Origin: Candidatus Limnocylindrales bacterium
GTDB lineage: Bacteria; Moduliflexota; Moduliflexia; Moduliflexales; JAUQPW01
Direction: 5' to 3'
Assembly: GCA_035559535.1 (NCBI GenBank)
Contig: DATMBG010000044.1
Coordinates: 1 to 64,000, forward strand
Length of the DNA stretch: 64,000 nucleotides
The position numbers were made by a program, and so were the translations under genes. Position 1 is the stretch's first letter. Every line of letters begins with the position of its first letter. Under the pieces are notes generated by a model, which was not told where the DNA came from, did no database searches, and saw only the letters and a list, made by a program, of their open reading frames with translations. Shown piece by piece: positions 2,658 to 7,984 of this stretch.

Positions 2658-2684
2658 TTGACACTTTAGATTTCCGGATATAAA
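2658..2684 (+). promoter_or_regulatory. Probable sigma-70 promoter for the OsmC gene
   Basis: -35 TTGACA at 2658-2663 and -10 TATAAA at 2679-2684. The spacer is 15 bp, shorter than ideal. The OsmC start lies about 125 bases downstream. Confidence 0.45.
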
Positions 2685-2812
2685 GTCAGATCATATTTTA
2701 AAAATCCCAAAGTAGGATCTGTTTGGGAAAAATCGGAATTCTGAGCAGGTTTATACCGATAATTACGTTCAGGCAATTTAAATCCTCATAATCATAAGGA
2801 GGTGAAGAAATC

Positions 2813-3259
2813 ATGGGACAGAGCCAGATACGGGAGTACACAGTACAAGCTCGCTCCACCGATACGTTCGGGAGAGTGTTATGCAGTTGTCGTCAGCACC
2901 ATTTTATAGTTGATGGACCGATTCAAAATGGCTGCCCAGGTGAGGCCATAACCCCGGCTGAACTATTCTTGTCCGGAGTTGCTTCGTGCGGGGTTGAGCT
3001 GCTCCAGGTGGTTGCCAGGGAGCAGAATGTACCCCTGGAAGGGGTTAAGGTCAATATTTGGGGAATCATCGATCGGGACCATCCCGTTCGTTCCGATGTT
3101 ACTTTGTTCAATAAGGTCCGATTGAGTTTTCAACTTAAAGGGGTTAACGAAGGAGAAGGGGCCAAACTCATTGAGACCTTCAAAGGCAGATGACCGCTCT
3201 ATGGAACGGTCGCAGTTGCGACTCCCGAGGTCCAGGTAGAGTTTCGTATAGAGCACTAG
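2813..3259 (+). CDS. OsmC-family thiol peroxidase, candidate selenoprotein (TGA at codon 127)
   Basis: OsmC/Ohr-family proteins reduce organic hydroperoxides with two conserved cysteines. The first is present in LFLSGVASCGVELLQVV. The second normally sits in a Cys-Pro motif after the helix LIETFKGR. Here that codon is TGA (3191-3193) and the same frame continues PLYGTVAVATPEVQVEF to a TAG at 3257-3259, giving 148 residues, the usual family length. Stopping at TGA would leave 126 residues without the resolving residue or last strand. A perfect Shine-Dalgarno (AAGGAGGTGA, 2796-2805) lies 7 bases before the ATG. A hairpin with a G in its loop follows the TGA at SECIS distance. Seen: the TGA, the frame and the hairpin. 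Inferred: selenocysteine insertion. The alternative is a fresh nonsense mutation of TGC or TGT. Confidence 0.6.
3208..3223 (+). promoter_or_regulatory. Candidate bacterial SECIS hairpin
   Basis: The stem GGTCGC/GCGACT (3208-3213 with 3218-3223, one G-U pair at the base) closes a 4-base loop AGTT whose second base is G. The apical loop starts 20 bases after the TGA. As I recall it, the bacterial SECIS rule asks for 16-37 bases and a G in the first two loop positions. Confidence 0.45.
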
Positions 3260-3320
3260 CGGATAAATTTCTTGTTTCAGAGGTGGTTTTCAAAGATTTA
3301 TAACATACAATTTTAACGGC

Positions 3321-3472
3321 TCATTCAGCCAGCAAACCTATTTTCTTCAACAACGCTGTGTATCTGAGGTTTGTATTCAGATTATCTTGGTATCCTGGAG
3401 CAGGGAGGTAGATCAGGTAGCCAGAGAGCTCCTTATAAGCCTTTTGTAGCCTCGAAGAGGGCAAACCTGCTT
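3321..3472 (-). pseudogene. Possible C-terminal gene fragment
   Basis: On the minus strand, 49 codons are open between two stops and end with LRYTALLKKIGLLAE. This resembles the C-terminal tails of TPR or adenylate-cyclase-like regulators (D.R...LLKKIGL). There is no start or ribosome binding site. It is the only coding-like signal in the gap between the OsmC gene and the membrane protein. Confidence 0.25.
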
Positions 3473-3592
3473 AACGACATCGCTCAACTGCCTGGCCTGC
3501 ACTGAGGAGCTATGGACTCCAGGAAACGAGCATCGTGGGCCGGGTCAGCTGCAGAGGGTGGCCAGGCGGGATGAATAGTGTTGTTTGCTGAT

Positions 3593-4144
3593 CTAATCCT
3601 TATCCCCTGTTCTCTTGGGCCTTTGCCGTCGCTCAAGCGCGATGTATATAACCGCGTCCCACGCGTTATGGATTCCTACGAATAATAGGAAAACTGCGGT
3701 TGCACCGATCACAAACAGAGCCTGCACAGGATATCGCCAGAGTATGTTCGCAGCAGTCAGAAGTACCGCATAAGCAATGAACGGAAGCGCACAATGCCAG
3801 AGCCAGTCCTCGAGTACCGGTACGTAGTCAGTCTGCCGTCGCACACGCCTGGCAACTAACACCGTGTATGTTAGTCCCGCTAGCCCGCACGCATCGAGGC
3901 AGAGCCCAGCACTCGAGATAGTCGGCCATGGTGCACTGATAATCACCGAGATGAAGAGTACGGCGCAGAAGTGCACGATCGTCGGAGTACCGAATGCGCG
4001 GATCGTCGGGGTACTAAGCACGTCCACTTCGGCACCCAGGGTAATCACTACGAATTGCAGACCGGTCAAGGCACTGGCTGAAGAGCCGAGGATGACGTAA
4101 AAGTTTCCCCAGGAAATGAGCAATGACAGTATGGCTTGTTCCAT
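3593..4144 (-). CDS. Hypothetical integral membrane protein
   Basis: 183 residues from the ATG at 4144, chosen because GGAG lies 8 bases upstream. An in-frame ATG at 4177 has no such site. Four or five hydrophobic segments are visible (for example ILSLLISWGNFYVILG, IVHFCAVLFISVIISA, LPFIAYAVLLTAANIL and ALFVIGATAVFLLFVGI), separated by basic loops, with a charged tail ERRQRPKRTGDKD. This predicts an inner-membrane protein. I do not recognise the family or a function. It is divergent from the following AraC-like fragment, and its codons are more GC-rich than the surrounding AT-rich spacer, which fits a transferred patch. Confidence 0.6.
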   Translation of the reverse strand: MEQAILSLLISWGNFYVILGSSASALTGLQFVVITLGAEVDVLSTPTIRAFGTPTIVHFCAVLFISVIISAPWPTISSAGLCLDACGLAGLTYTVLVARRVRRQTDYVPVLEDWLWHCALPFIAYAVLLTAANILWRYPVQALFVIGATAVFLLFVGIHNAWDAVIYIALERRQRPKRTGDKD

Positions 4145-4327
4145 GATTGATCTCCAGCGCGAAGTTGTTAGGAACATGGTTACCTTTATTAAATATATAT
4201 TAAATATAAATATTAAATATAAAACTGTATTCTCTAAATTAAGACAAGTTTTTCATCCACAAAGGGTGGCTTCCCATCTATTAAGTTTATTAGATTCTTT
4301 TCAGGAGTTGTAGAAAATAACTGCACT

Positions 4328-4693
4328 ATGATGCATTTTAAGACCATAAGTGAGTTGCATCGGGTAGAGGGTCTTCCGCCTCCGAAAAATCCATTGTTCT
4401 GCCTGAAACAGCTTGAAGAAGTGCCCTATGCTTTAAAAAACAAGGAGATCACCTGCGATTTCTATTTGATTTGTTTCAAAAAACTGAAAACAGGTGGGAT
4501 ATGGTATGGCAAACCTAAGTATGACCATGATAGGGGTTTCATGTATTTTATGAAACCAAGACAAAGACTTACTGTTCATGATGTTCAATTGAAAGAAAAA
4601 GGATTCTCTATTCTATTTCACGAAGACTATCTGATGGGACATCCTTTTTACAATCAATCTCATCTTGGTACTCCGAAAACCTGGAGCAAATGA
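4328..4693 (+). pseudogene. Truncated AraC-family regulator (sensor domain only)
   Basis: 121 codons. The start MHFKTISELHRVEGLPPPK and the later GFMYFMKPRQRL and GFSILFHEDYLMGHP resemble the N-terminal cupin-like domain of AraC/XylS regulators common in Bacteroidetes. Those proteins continue for another 170-180 residues with two helix-turn-helix motifs. Here the frame leaves the family after HPFYNQSH and stops, so no DNA-binding domain is encoded. It lies 42 bases before a broken SDR gene, which suggests the remains of a regulator-target pair. An expressed fragment could still bind a ligand, but loss of function is more likely. Confidence 0.5.
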
Positions 4694-4735
4694 CTGTTCG
4701 CTGAGCGACTGTTAGGGCAAGCAAGAGTTAAGATT

Positions 4736-5041
4736 ATGAGCAACAACATTGAAGGAAAAGTCGTCGTTATTACGGGGGCCAGTAGTGGCTTGGGCGAGGT
4801 GGCGGTCCGGTTTCTCTCCACGCAAGGTACAATCCTCATGACGGTGATTTCACCCGGCGCAGTTGCTATGGAACTGCCCAAGGGCATGACTGAGCCCGAT
4901 GTAGCCAAGAAAGTCCGTAAAGCCTATGAGATCGCGATTCCTGCCGAGTCGTTCACGCGGGCAGTCGCCTTCGCGATCAGCCAGCCGGAGGACATGGGCG
5001 TGAACGAGATCCTGTTCTGGTCCACGCAGCAGGAGCTATAA
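4736..5041 (+). pseudogene. SDR oxidoreductase with internal deletion
   Basis: The first 30 residues are a normal short-chain dehydrogenase start with the NAD(P)-binding TGASSGLGE motif. After RFLSTQG the sequence jumps directly to the C-terminal part TVISPGAVAMELP and continues to the normal-looking end NEILFWSTQQEL. About 140-150 residues that should contain the NNAG strand, the catalytic Ser and the YxxxK motif are missing, yet the frame is kept across the junction. The product (101 residues) cannot be an active SDR. Confidence 0.65.
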
Positions 5042-5109
5042 GCTTCCCTGTTTGCTGTGGGAAGGCTCCGATTATTATTTACTGAATCGAAAGGATGAGA
5101 AGGAAAAGG

Positions 5110-5214
5110 ATGCAAATGAAACTGCTTGCCATGATGGTCATGTTGTTTTTTCTTCTGGAGAAGCGCTTCAGCGTAACCCGAATTCACACCCTTGTGAAAG
5201 GAGGCAGAAAATGA
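5110..5214 (+). CDS. Possible small ORF translationally coupled to the next gene
   Basis: 34 codons beginning MQMKLLAMMVMLFFLLEK, a basic residue followed by a hydrophobic stretch like a signal peptide, preceded by an AAGG-rich site. Its TGA overlaps the ATG of the lipoprotein gene (ATGA at 5211). It may be the leftover 5' end of a deleted exported protein or a coupling leader. I recognise no homologue. Confidence 0.25.
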   Translation: MQMKLLAMMVMLFFLLEKRFSVTRIHTLVKGGRK

Positions 5215-6008
5215 AAATTTTTACTGAGGCAGTTGTGTGGCTTTCCTTAGTGGTCTCCGCCTGCACCCAGGCGGACAAGACAGCAGCTACACCAAGATCG
5301 AATACTGTTCTACCAGGGCTGACACCTGAGGATATTCGGATGGTCTCACCGGCACTCGAGCGATACATGCAAGGCACTCTTCTGGGTGATCTATGGAAGC
5401 GTCCGGATCTATCCCCGCGAGACCGCAGCATTGTTACCATAGCGGTCCTGATTGCGCGTAATCAGGCGATCGAGATGCCATACCATTTCAACCTGGCGCT
5501 GGATAACGGCGTCAAACCAGGTGAGATTTCTGAGATTATCACGCATCTTGCGTTCTACTCTGGCTGGGTAAATGCTATGTCGGCGGTCGCAGTCGCGAAA
5601 GATGTTTTCAGTAAGCGTGGAATCGGATCGGATCAGCTTCCACCGGCCTCGGGTGAACTTCTTCCCCTCGACGAGACTGCCGAGGCGCAACGCGCGGCTC
5701 GTGTTGAGCAGGATGTCGGTCCAGTAGCACCGGGCCTTGTGCAGTATACCAGTGACGTGCTTTTCCGTGACCTCTGGCTACGTCCGGCCTTGGTACCTCG
5801 GGACCGGAGCCTGGTGACTGTCAGCGCCCTCATCGCCTCAGGTCAGGTCGCGCAAATCCCGTATCACCTCAATAGGGCAATGGATAATGGCCTAACGAAG
5901 GCCCAAGTCTCTGAGGTGCTCACACACCTGGCCTTTTATGCGGGGTGGCCTAACGTTTTTTCCGCAATACCGGTTGTCAAGGGCGTCTTTGAGAAACGTC
6001 CCAACTAG
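5211..6008 (+). CDS. Exported lipoprotein with two carboxymuconolactone decarboxylase domains
   Basis: The start at 5211 has AGGAGG about 7 bases upstream. It gives a lipoprotein signal (hydrophobic core then VVSAC, lipobox Cys at residue 18), where longer in-frame starts give none. Two CMD/AhpD-like repeats follow: RDRSIVTIAVLIARNQ with MPYHFNLALDNGVKPGEI in the first half, and RDRSLVTVSALIASGQ with IPYHLNRAMDNGLTKAQV in the second. The family includes 4-carboxymuconolactone decarboxylase and peroxidase-related proteins. The CxxC of AhpD is absent in both repeats, so a thiol peroxidase role is unlikely. Anchoring such a protein in the envelope is unusual. Function unknown. Confidence 0.75.
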   Translation: MKIFTEAVVWLSLVVSACTQADKTAATPRSNTVLPGLTPEDIRMVSPALERYMQGTLLGDLWKRPDLSPRDRSIVTIAVLIARNQAIEMPYHFNLALDNGVKPGEISEIITHLAFYSGWVNAMSAVAVAKDVFSKRGIGSDQLPPASGELLPLDETAEAQRAARVEQDVGPVAPGLVQYTSDVLFRDLWLRPALVPRDRSLVTVSALIASGQVAQIPYHLNRAMDNGLTKAQVSEVLTHLAFYAGWPNVFSAIPVVKGVFEKRPN

Positions 6009-6093
6009 TAGGATTGTCCAGATGGAATCATGTAGGGTTTTCAGTATGGGGTAGTAAACGTCCCTTTCTTCCACTCAGAGCCGAATAGTCTGT

Positions 6094-6116
6094 AAGCCAC
6101 CCCGGGTGGCTTTGCT
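6094..6116 (+). terminator. Hairpin terminator after the CMD lipoprotein gene
   Basis: An 8-bp stem, AAGCCACC with GGTGGCTT, around a 3-base loop, followed by a weak T stretch. It separates the lipoprotein gene from the MFS gene. Confidence 0.5.
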
Positions 6117-6149
6117 CTGATCGTGTGTTTCATCATCTAAGAGTTAACC

Positions 6150-7349
6150 ATGTCCGATAACGCTTCCCGACAACCTACGGCGACGGATATTCCCATCATG
6201 GCGGTACTGCTGGCGATCATGGCTGCGGTCTTTGTAATGTACCTTGTCATCGGTTTTGCGCTGCCGGTAATTCCGCTTTATGTGCATCAGGGCCTTGGTC
6301 TCGGTACCTTCGTGGTCGGTCTCGTCGCCGGCGCGCAGTACGCCGCGACCTTGGTCTCACGGCTGTGGTCAGGCCACTATGCCGACAACCGGGGCGCGAA
6401 GTACTCAGTCGTCGCCAGTTTGCTGGTTGCCGCGGCGGCGGGTCTCCTCTACCTTCTATCGCTCCGTTTCGTCGGCACTCCGGTAACATCAGTCTCAATC
6501 TTGCTGGTGGGTCGGGCCGTGCTCGGCGTGGCGGAGAGCCTTATCACGGTGGGGGCATTCGTCTGGGGACTGGCGCTCGTAGGACCACAGAACACGGGCA
6601 AGGTCATGGCCTGGGTGGGAGTGGCAATGTACGTTGCCTATGCGGTCGGCGCGCCGACCGGCACTGCTTTGTACGCTGGCTACGGCTTTGCAGCCATTGC
6701 ACTTGTGACGACACTGATCCCCCTCGTCACCCTGCTACTCGTCGCACCGCTCCGCCCCATTGCGCCAATGTCCCAGACCCGCCCTGGATTCACGAGAGTC
6801 GTCGGTGCCGTTTGGGTACCAGGTCTCGGCCTGGCGCTCGGCAGCATCGGCTTCGGCGCTACCACAACGTTTATCGTTCTACTCTTTGCCCAACAGGGGT
6901 GGGGCCTGGCCTGGCTTGCTCTTACCGCTTTCAGCATTGTCTTCGTCATCGGGCGCGTTGTATTTGGCCATCTACCGGATAGGATCGGCGGCGCCAGGGT
7001 TGCGCTGGTCTGCGTGCTGATCGAAGCGGCTGGCCAGGCGCTGATCTGGCTTGCACCTCGGCCCACGCTGGCGTTGTTCGGGGCGGTGCTCACCGGCCTC
7101 GGCTACTCGCTCGTTTACCCCGGCTTTGGCGTGGAAGCGGTACGCCGCGCGCCGCCGGAAAATCATGGCCTCGCCACAGGGGCTTACACGGCTTTTCTCG
7201 ACCTGGCGTTGGGACTCGCTAACCCTGCACTGGGGCTGGTTGCGAGCGGAGCCGGCTTAAGGGCGGTGTTCCTCGTCAGCACGCTGATCGTGATGTGTTC
7301 CGCGGTTATCGCCGTGCGGCTCATCAATGCACCGATGACCACCCCATGA
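6150..7349 (+). CDS. MFS transporter, YfcJ/YhhS-like
   Basis: 399 residues with about twelve hydrophobic segments. The MFS loop 2-3 signature is present as RLWSGHYADNRGAKYSV (a G..D.RG.R-type motif), and a second copy of the pattern appears as VFGHLPDRIGGARV in the C-terminal half, as expected of the duplicated fold. The start region (IMAVLLAIMAAVFVMYLVIGFA) and overall layout recall the YfcJ/YhhS arabinose-type exporters, so it is an inner-membrane proton-linked permease. The substrate cannot be read. The DNA is much more GC-rich than the rest of the window and the gene stands alone, both pointing to recent acquisition. Confidence 0.8.
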   Translation: MSDNASRQPTATDIPIMAVLLAIMAAVFVMYLVIGFALPVIPLYVHQGLGLGTFVVGLVAGAQYAATLVSRLWSGHYADNRGAKYSVVASLLVAAAAGLLYLLSLRFVGTPVTSVSILLVGRAVLGVAESLITVGAFVWGLALVGPQNTGKVMAWVGVAMYVAYAVGAPTGTALYAGYGFAAIALVTTLIPLVTLLLVAPLRPIAPMSQTRPGFTRVVGAVWVPGLGLALGSIGFGATTTFIVLLFAQQGWGLAWLALTAFSIVFVIGRVVFGHLPDRIGGARVALVCVLIEAAGQALIWLAPRPTLALFGAVLTGLGYSLVYPGFGVEAVRRAPPENHGLATGAYTAFLDLALGLANPALGLVASGAGLRAVFLVSTLIVMCSAVIAVRLINAPMTTP

Positions 7350-7984
7350 CATCATGGGTACACTCTTTGCCCGTGTCGGGCATGAGGTGGTACCCGGTTA
7401 TGCACACAGACGAAAGAAACTGGAGCGACCGGTACAGAATGTTAATGGGAACGCACGGGCGGACACACTGCAGAGGAAGTGGATGCCCTTCTGCTGACCA
7501 TGCAGTAATCATGCGTTGATGATGTGTTGAATCAGACAGGCGATTTGTCCAACAGGATTATCGTGAGCTGCTCCTTACCCATGAATGCTGACAATACTAA
7601 GCTCGTGATCGTTCACACCTCCTGGAGTGCACAGGAACCCACAAGGAACTTACCGTAAGGTAACCTTAGGTTAGAAAGACGATTGTTTTTCTAACTGATC
7701 GATCCCTTGATCGACCCCTTGTCAACACGCCTCAAAATTCCCTTGATTTTTAGTAAAGAAACCCATTTAATAAAACTAAATTTAAAAACTCGTTTTATAG
7801 TTGACTTCCTTTACCTTAAAAGTCAAGATCTTGTTACACGAAAAGATGTTAATTGGTTATGTATGAGTTTTTACTAAAACCTTTAACAGCCGGTTAGAGG
7901 AATGCATAAAATTCACTAAACATCTCGTAAGACAAGGTAGCAGGCAGTTCATATACACACCCAGAACTTGAAAGGAGCAGCGAT
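7350..7984. other. Gap without recognisable gene
   Basis: 635 bases with no supported gene. Small inverted repeats are visible: TTACC-GTAA-GGTAA near 7650 and TTGACTT/AAGTCAA near 7801-7826. The latter could be an operator for the downstream amidohydrolase gene. Composition shifts from GC-rich on the left to AT-rich on the right, marking the edge of the foreign patch. Confidence 0.4.

Follow-up and report, generated by a model that had tools for sequence, protein, structure and literature searches.

A Candidate OsmC-like Selenoprotein with Selenocysteine at the Second Conserved Cysteine Position

Results and Discussion

Gene Structure and Upstream Signals

The window (the whole stretch of DNA that was analyzed, 64,000 nucleotides in length) contains a gene that is predicted to encode an OsmC-like protein with a single selenocysteine. 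The reading frame begins with the ATG at position 2813 and reaches an in-frame TGA at codon 127, after which 21 open codons lead to a TAG at positions 3257–3259. When the TGA is translated as a residue, the 148-residue product matches the Pfam model for OsmC (PF02566) with a score of 38.8 bits, relative to a gathering cutoff of 27.5 bits, and this places the protein in the OsmC superfamily. The match covers residues 43–141 and thus spans the TGA, in agreement with an earlier note on this DNA, made from the sequence alone, in which the frame was said to continue for 21 codons to a natural stop. The sequence Pro-Leu-Tyr directly after Sec127 is invariant. The features of the locus are collected in Table 1.

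Table 1. Coordinates of the Predicted Selenoprotein Gene and Its Associated Features in the Window
Feature	Position	Strand	Remarks
OsmC-like selenoprotein gene (predicted)	2813..3259	+	148 residues, Sec at 127; homologues and PF02566 match
Codon of Glu50	2960..2962	+	invariant; nine residues N-terminal of Cys59
Codon of Cys59, first conserved OsmC cysteine	2987..2989	+	invariant; aligned to first Cys of Ohr
UGA predicted to be read as Sec127	3191..3193	+	second conserved OsmC cysteine place
Putative bacterial SECIS hairpin, GGUCGC-AGUU-GCGACU	3208..3223	+	stem 3208-3213 with 3218-3223; loop AGUU 3214-3217; conserved G 3215
Shine-Dalgarno sequence, AAGGAGGTG	2796..2804	+	strong; read from sequence
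Promoter-like sequence, TTGACA-17-TAAAGT	2658..2686	+	weak evidence; 10/12 consensus matches

The Shine-Dalgarno sequence that had been claimed for this gene is present, and the corresponding sequence in the sister species is AAAGGAGTG. The promoter that was claimed together with it is less secure. Both hexamers of the promoter-like sequence are unchanged in the sister species, but two such sites were found in the region where 1.1 would be expected by chance, as determined from shuffles of the region. Among the 21 gene neighborhoods that were compared, no conservation was found beyond close relatives except for antisense frames (with crude gene calling), and the neighboring genes provide no clue to the substrate. 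A segment of approximately 4 kb that separates the OsmC gene from the next gene in common with the sister species (3300–7980 of the window) has no counterpart in that species (L118, 9050–9830), where the genes that flank the OsmC locus are otherwise found in the same order.

Conservation of the In-Frame TGA

The gene from the sister species (L050 in JAUQPW010000001.1; L010 denotes this same locus) shares 97% identity with that of the window, and the TGA is retained. The two genes differ by 21 synonymous and 3 nonsynonymous changes before the TGA, and by 3 synonymous changes and 1 nonsynonymous change in the 21 codons that follow it. The region beyond the TGA is thus not decayed. A scan of contigs across the genomes for close relatives found nothing beyond the sister species.

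More distant members of this subfamily were found with profile searches. In one phylum (that of G088), the search of 95 genomes returned 40 genes from 39 genomes, all 40 with an in-frame TGA, and tRNA-Sec was detected in 79 of the 95 genomes. In a second phylum (that of G315), the TGA was found in 13 of 13 subfamily genes, and a third phylum contributed a single gene with a TGA (L086). Together with the genes from the window and the sister species, there are 56 subfamily genes with an in-frame TGA, from the genus of the window and three other sampled groups. The TGA was read directly in 46 of these genes, where it always occupies the same codon within the motif R-U-P-L-Y; for the remaining 10 genes, the TGA is known from the stop count of the search alone. 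One of the 40 genes from the phylum of G088 (G159:C333:25368-25730) contains a TAA in addition to a TGA in frame and may be decayed or misassembled.

The only cysteine form of the subfamily that was found comes from a relative in G051 (L011/L081), where the codon equivalent to that of Sec127 is TGT. Cysteine is also found at the equivalent place in the structures of Ohr. The proposal that the TGA occupies the position of the second family cysteine is therefore borne out by the sister species and the distant relatives, which have TGA in all 46 genes that were read, and by the cysteine in the relative from G051. The subfamily appears to be nearly obligate for selenocysteine, and the near absence of cysteine forms is unusual.

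Selenocysteine Machinery of the Genome

The genome from which the window originates (G000) is 5.6 Mb in 58 contigs. A search of this genome for the four components that the earlier note had named found all of them. The tRNA-Sec scores 74.5 bits relative to a cutoff of 47 bits, and SelA (622.1 bits), SelB (408.6 bits), and SelD (388.6 bits) are each above the curated cutoff. The full selenocysteine pathway is therefore encoded in this genome. The gene for SelD (L046, G000:C29:76668-77594) has an in-frame TGA within the motif ECGGUAAKL and, after it, a GC-rich hairpin; SelD is thus likely to be a selenoprotein itself.

The frames for SelA and SelB contain no internal TGA, and that for SelD contains only the one at the selenocysteine motif. 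These frames, together with the selenocysteine machinery, agree with the previous statement that the genetic code is unaltered, and they oppose a reassignment of TGA in this genome to an amino acid such as tryptophan. Reassignment would likewise keep the frame open past the TGA, and nothing else in its favor was seen. The residue at this position is, moreover, cysteine and not tryptophan in the relative that lacks the TGA and in the Ohr structures, and we assign to reassignment a negligible probability.

SECIS Hairpin

A hairpin with a G in its loop had been noted 20 bases after the TGA, and this element is found within the coding sequence of the window. There are 14 nt between the UGA and the start of the hairpin, which is counted as 20 nt after the UGA. 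The published criteria for bacterial SECIS elements specify a loop of 3–9 nt, a stem of 4–16 pairs, a G in the first two loop bases, a distance of 16–37 nt from the UGA, and an energy of at most −7.5 kcal/mol (PMC13188914). The hairpin from the window has a loop of 4 nt, 6 pairs, a G as the second loop base, a distance of 20 nt, and an energy of −8.5 kcal/mol, and it lies within all of these limits. A search of Rfam returned nothing relevant, with one match to a microRNA below threshold. The folding of the hairpin from the window alone is not significant (z = −0.49), and the evidence for the hairpin is for this reason comparative. Synonymous shuffles conducted gene by gene also gave a weak signal, since GC-rich codons for the sequence TVAxAT by themselves favor folding.

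All six pairs of the stem can form in 45 of the 46 genes. In the single exception (L086), the outermost pair is lost and an inner U-A pair is changed to C-G on both sides, which is a compensatory substitution. In none of the 46 genes does the second base of the loop depart from G, although the codon that begins with this G encodes Val, Gly, Ala, or Asp, depending on the gene. In 30 genes from the phylum of G088, the stem codons ACG, GTC, GCG, and ACC are invariant, and the fifth is either GCG or GCA; the mean codon entropy in these genes is 0.11 bits at the five stem codons versus 1.05 bits at 32 other conserved positions. The hairpin is absent from the cysteine relative in G051, and among 24 OsmC frames with cysteine that were examined, none has at least five of the six pairs. 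As judged from these comparisons, the joint pattern of UGA and hairpin within the family is far beyond chance.

The conserved hairpin bears directly on whether the TGA is genuine and on whether it is read. The window comes from an assembly of 58 contigs, the sister sequence is a metagenome-assembled genome, and TGT is found at this codon in one relative, all of which would be compatible with a misread or misassembled TGC or TGT. However, the same TGA is present in 46 genes from many different assemblies together with a hairpin that is missing from the cysteine gene, and it is not credible that an error would recur at the identical codon across dozens of assemblies. The UGA could alternatively be a true stop, as it is in most bacterial genes and as translation table 11 would have it, such that the product is a shortened OsmC protein of 126 residues and the downstream sequence is a remnant. 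This possibility is considered very improbable. The family sequence after the UGA and the hairpin are conserved in 46 genes, few amino acid changes separate the window from the sister species in this region, a product that ends at the UGA would lack both the second catalytic residue and the final strand, and the selenocysteine machinery is present in the genome. From these sequence comparisons, it is nearly certain in our judgment that positions 2813–3259 constitute the gene for an OsmC-like selenoprotein.

Proposed Roles of Cys59 and Sec127

In Ohr, the first cysteine (Cys61 in the enzyme from Xylella) attacks the peroxide with the assistance of Arg19 and Glu51, and the second cysteine (Cys125) resolves the intermediate to a disulfide that is reduced by lipoylated proteins (PMC5962072). 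Cys59 and Sec127 of the window protein align to the first and second cysteines, respectively, of the Ohr/OsmC thiol peroxidases (PF02566, TIGR03561). The window protein differs from Ohr in that the second cysteine is replaced by selenocysteine, the invariant Glu50 is one residue off the Ohr register, and no arginine could be assigned. It scores 24.5 bits against the Ohr model TIGR03561, for which the cutoff is 88.85 bits. Within the Arg-Glu-Cys triad of Ohr, Cys59 matches, Glu50 is displaced by one residue, and the arginine is unplaced; a structure model was too weak to bear on this point. This model, which was made from two sequences, is of low confidence (pLDDT of 56.5), and its best matches in the PDB are mostly OsmC and Ohr proteins, none of which has an E value below 0.001. 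The alignment speaks against the identification of Glu50 with the catalytic glutamate of Ohr, from which it is offset by one residue.

The OsmC-like proteins of the YhfA/COG1765 type share with the window protein a glutamate at −9 from the first cysteine and Cys-Pro (Sec-Pro in the window protein) at the second place, and many of the homologues with cysteine found here have these features as well. Proteins of the YhfA/COG1765 type differ in that both places are cysteine. Peroxidase activity has not been established for YhfA (PMC4069020). For this reason, and because the glutamate is off register and the arginine is unplaced, we refrain from labeling the window protein as an Ohr peroxidase, and the reduction of hydroperoxides would be a presumed function.

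In the mechanism that we propose, SelB with the charged Sec-tRNA would insert selenocysteine at the UGA of codon 127 under the direction of the SECIS hairpin that lies within the coding sequence 20 nt downstream. Sec127, at the place of the resolving cysteine of Ohr/OsmC, would be paired with Cys59, since both residues align to the cysteines that form the disulfide in Ohr (PMC5962072). The pair would probably cycle between the thiol/selenol and the selenenylsulfide, with the reduction of a peroxide or another oxidized substrate.

It is conceivable that the two roles are exchanged, with Sec127 as the attacking residue and Cys59 as the resolving residue. Selenocysteine is the attacking nucleophile in most known selenoenzymes, and the resolving position would thus be unusual. 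The Glu register of Ohr near Cys59 is not kept, so Cys59 may lack an activation like that in Ohr, and the Pro-Leu-Tyr sequence after Sec127 is invariant. On the other hand, residue 127 aligns to the resolving place of Ohr, and both Cys59 and Glu50 are invariant. We regard the exchanged roles as a serious but less probable alternative; attack by Cys59 with resolution by Sec127 would be the likelier assignment. For the explanation as a whole, in which Sec127 is inserted through SelB and the SECIS hairpin, Cys59 and Sec127 form a redox pair, and Cys59 is the likelier attacking residue, we estimate a probability of about 0.9. The conservation of the UGA, the machinery, the hairpin, and the separate clade described below come from sequence and comparison, and the insertion of selenocysteine itself, the redox cycle, the roles assigned to the two residues, and the substrate are what we infer.

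Relationship to Known OsmC Selenoproteins

The earlier note had mentioned that OsmC-like selenoproteins were suggested from surveys. Such proteins are indeed known, with the motif UxxT (PMC1088965, PMC2398784; reviewed in PMC9312934 and PMC13188914), but selenocysteine is located at the first cysteine, and they represent a different variant. The NCBIfam model NF041052 (“OsmC-related (seleno)protein”, OsmC_like_Se) has a cutoff of 95 bits. In six members above this cutoff that were read, the first cysteine codon is replaced by the TGA, within F-U-L-L-T or F-U-I-L-T, which is the UxxT motif, and the second place remains cysteine. This shared motif suggests that NF041052 corresponds to the OsmC-like selenoprotein family from the Sargasso Sea. 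The UxxT proteins (Sargasso and GOS surveys, NF041052) have in common with the window protein the OsmC superfamily, one UGA-encoded selenocysteine at a conserved cysteine place, and a downstream hairpin. The order of the two residues, however, is reversed: selenocysteine is first and cysteine second in NF041052, whereas Cys59 precedes Sec127 in the window protein, which scores 30 bits against this model.

A tree built from 56 OsmC proteins groups the genes with selenocysteine at the second place in one clade (support of 100/97) and those with selenocysteine at the first place in a separate clade (support of 100/100). The cysteine gene L011 adjoins the former clade with weaker support (95/53). 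The two clades, with selenocysteine at opposite cysteine places, suggest two or more gains of selenocysteine in the OsmC superfamily that affected different members of the cysteine pair. It is likely that the subfamily described here is a second, independent, and nearly obligate lineage of OsmC selenoproteins in which the cysteine exchanged for selenocysteine is the resolving one and not the peroxidatic one.

This selenoprotein family is apparently missing from current catalogues, because a 2026 review of selenoproteins gives UxxT as the sole OsmC form and the window protein stays below the cutoff of every NCBIfam model of June 2026. We think it probable that the variant with selenocysteine at the second OsmC cysteine is absent from the open-access catalogues, and other papers could contain it. 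Annotation that takes the UGA as a stop would cut the protein at approximately 126 residues in dozens of genomes. If our interpretation is correct, the two clades would show that either member of this thiol pair has received selenium in the course of evolution, and they would constitute a natural pair with which to consider the use of selenium for faster attack, faster resolution, or protection against overoxidation.

Three additional observations concern OsmC selenoproteins in other genomes. Another OsmC homologue, from G064 (L021, 1501–1842), reads ALGS-U-MSMT, which puts the TGA at the place of the first cysteine, and a possible hairpin accompanies it. This homologue lies outside of the NF041052 type, is the only one of its kind that was seen, and may be a third form of selenocysteine-containing OsmC or an error. 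The genome G051 carries both the cysteine form of the subfamily (L081) and a first-cysteine OsmC selenoprotein of the NF041052 type (L092). Finally, G234 and G370 (L089 and L090) each contain three separate genes above the NF041052 cutoff with one TGA per gene, and the OsmC selenoproteins with selenocysteine at the first place are therefore multicopy in these two genomes.
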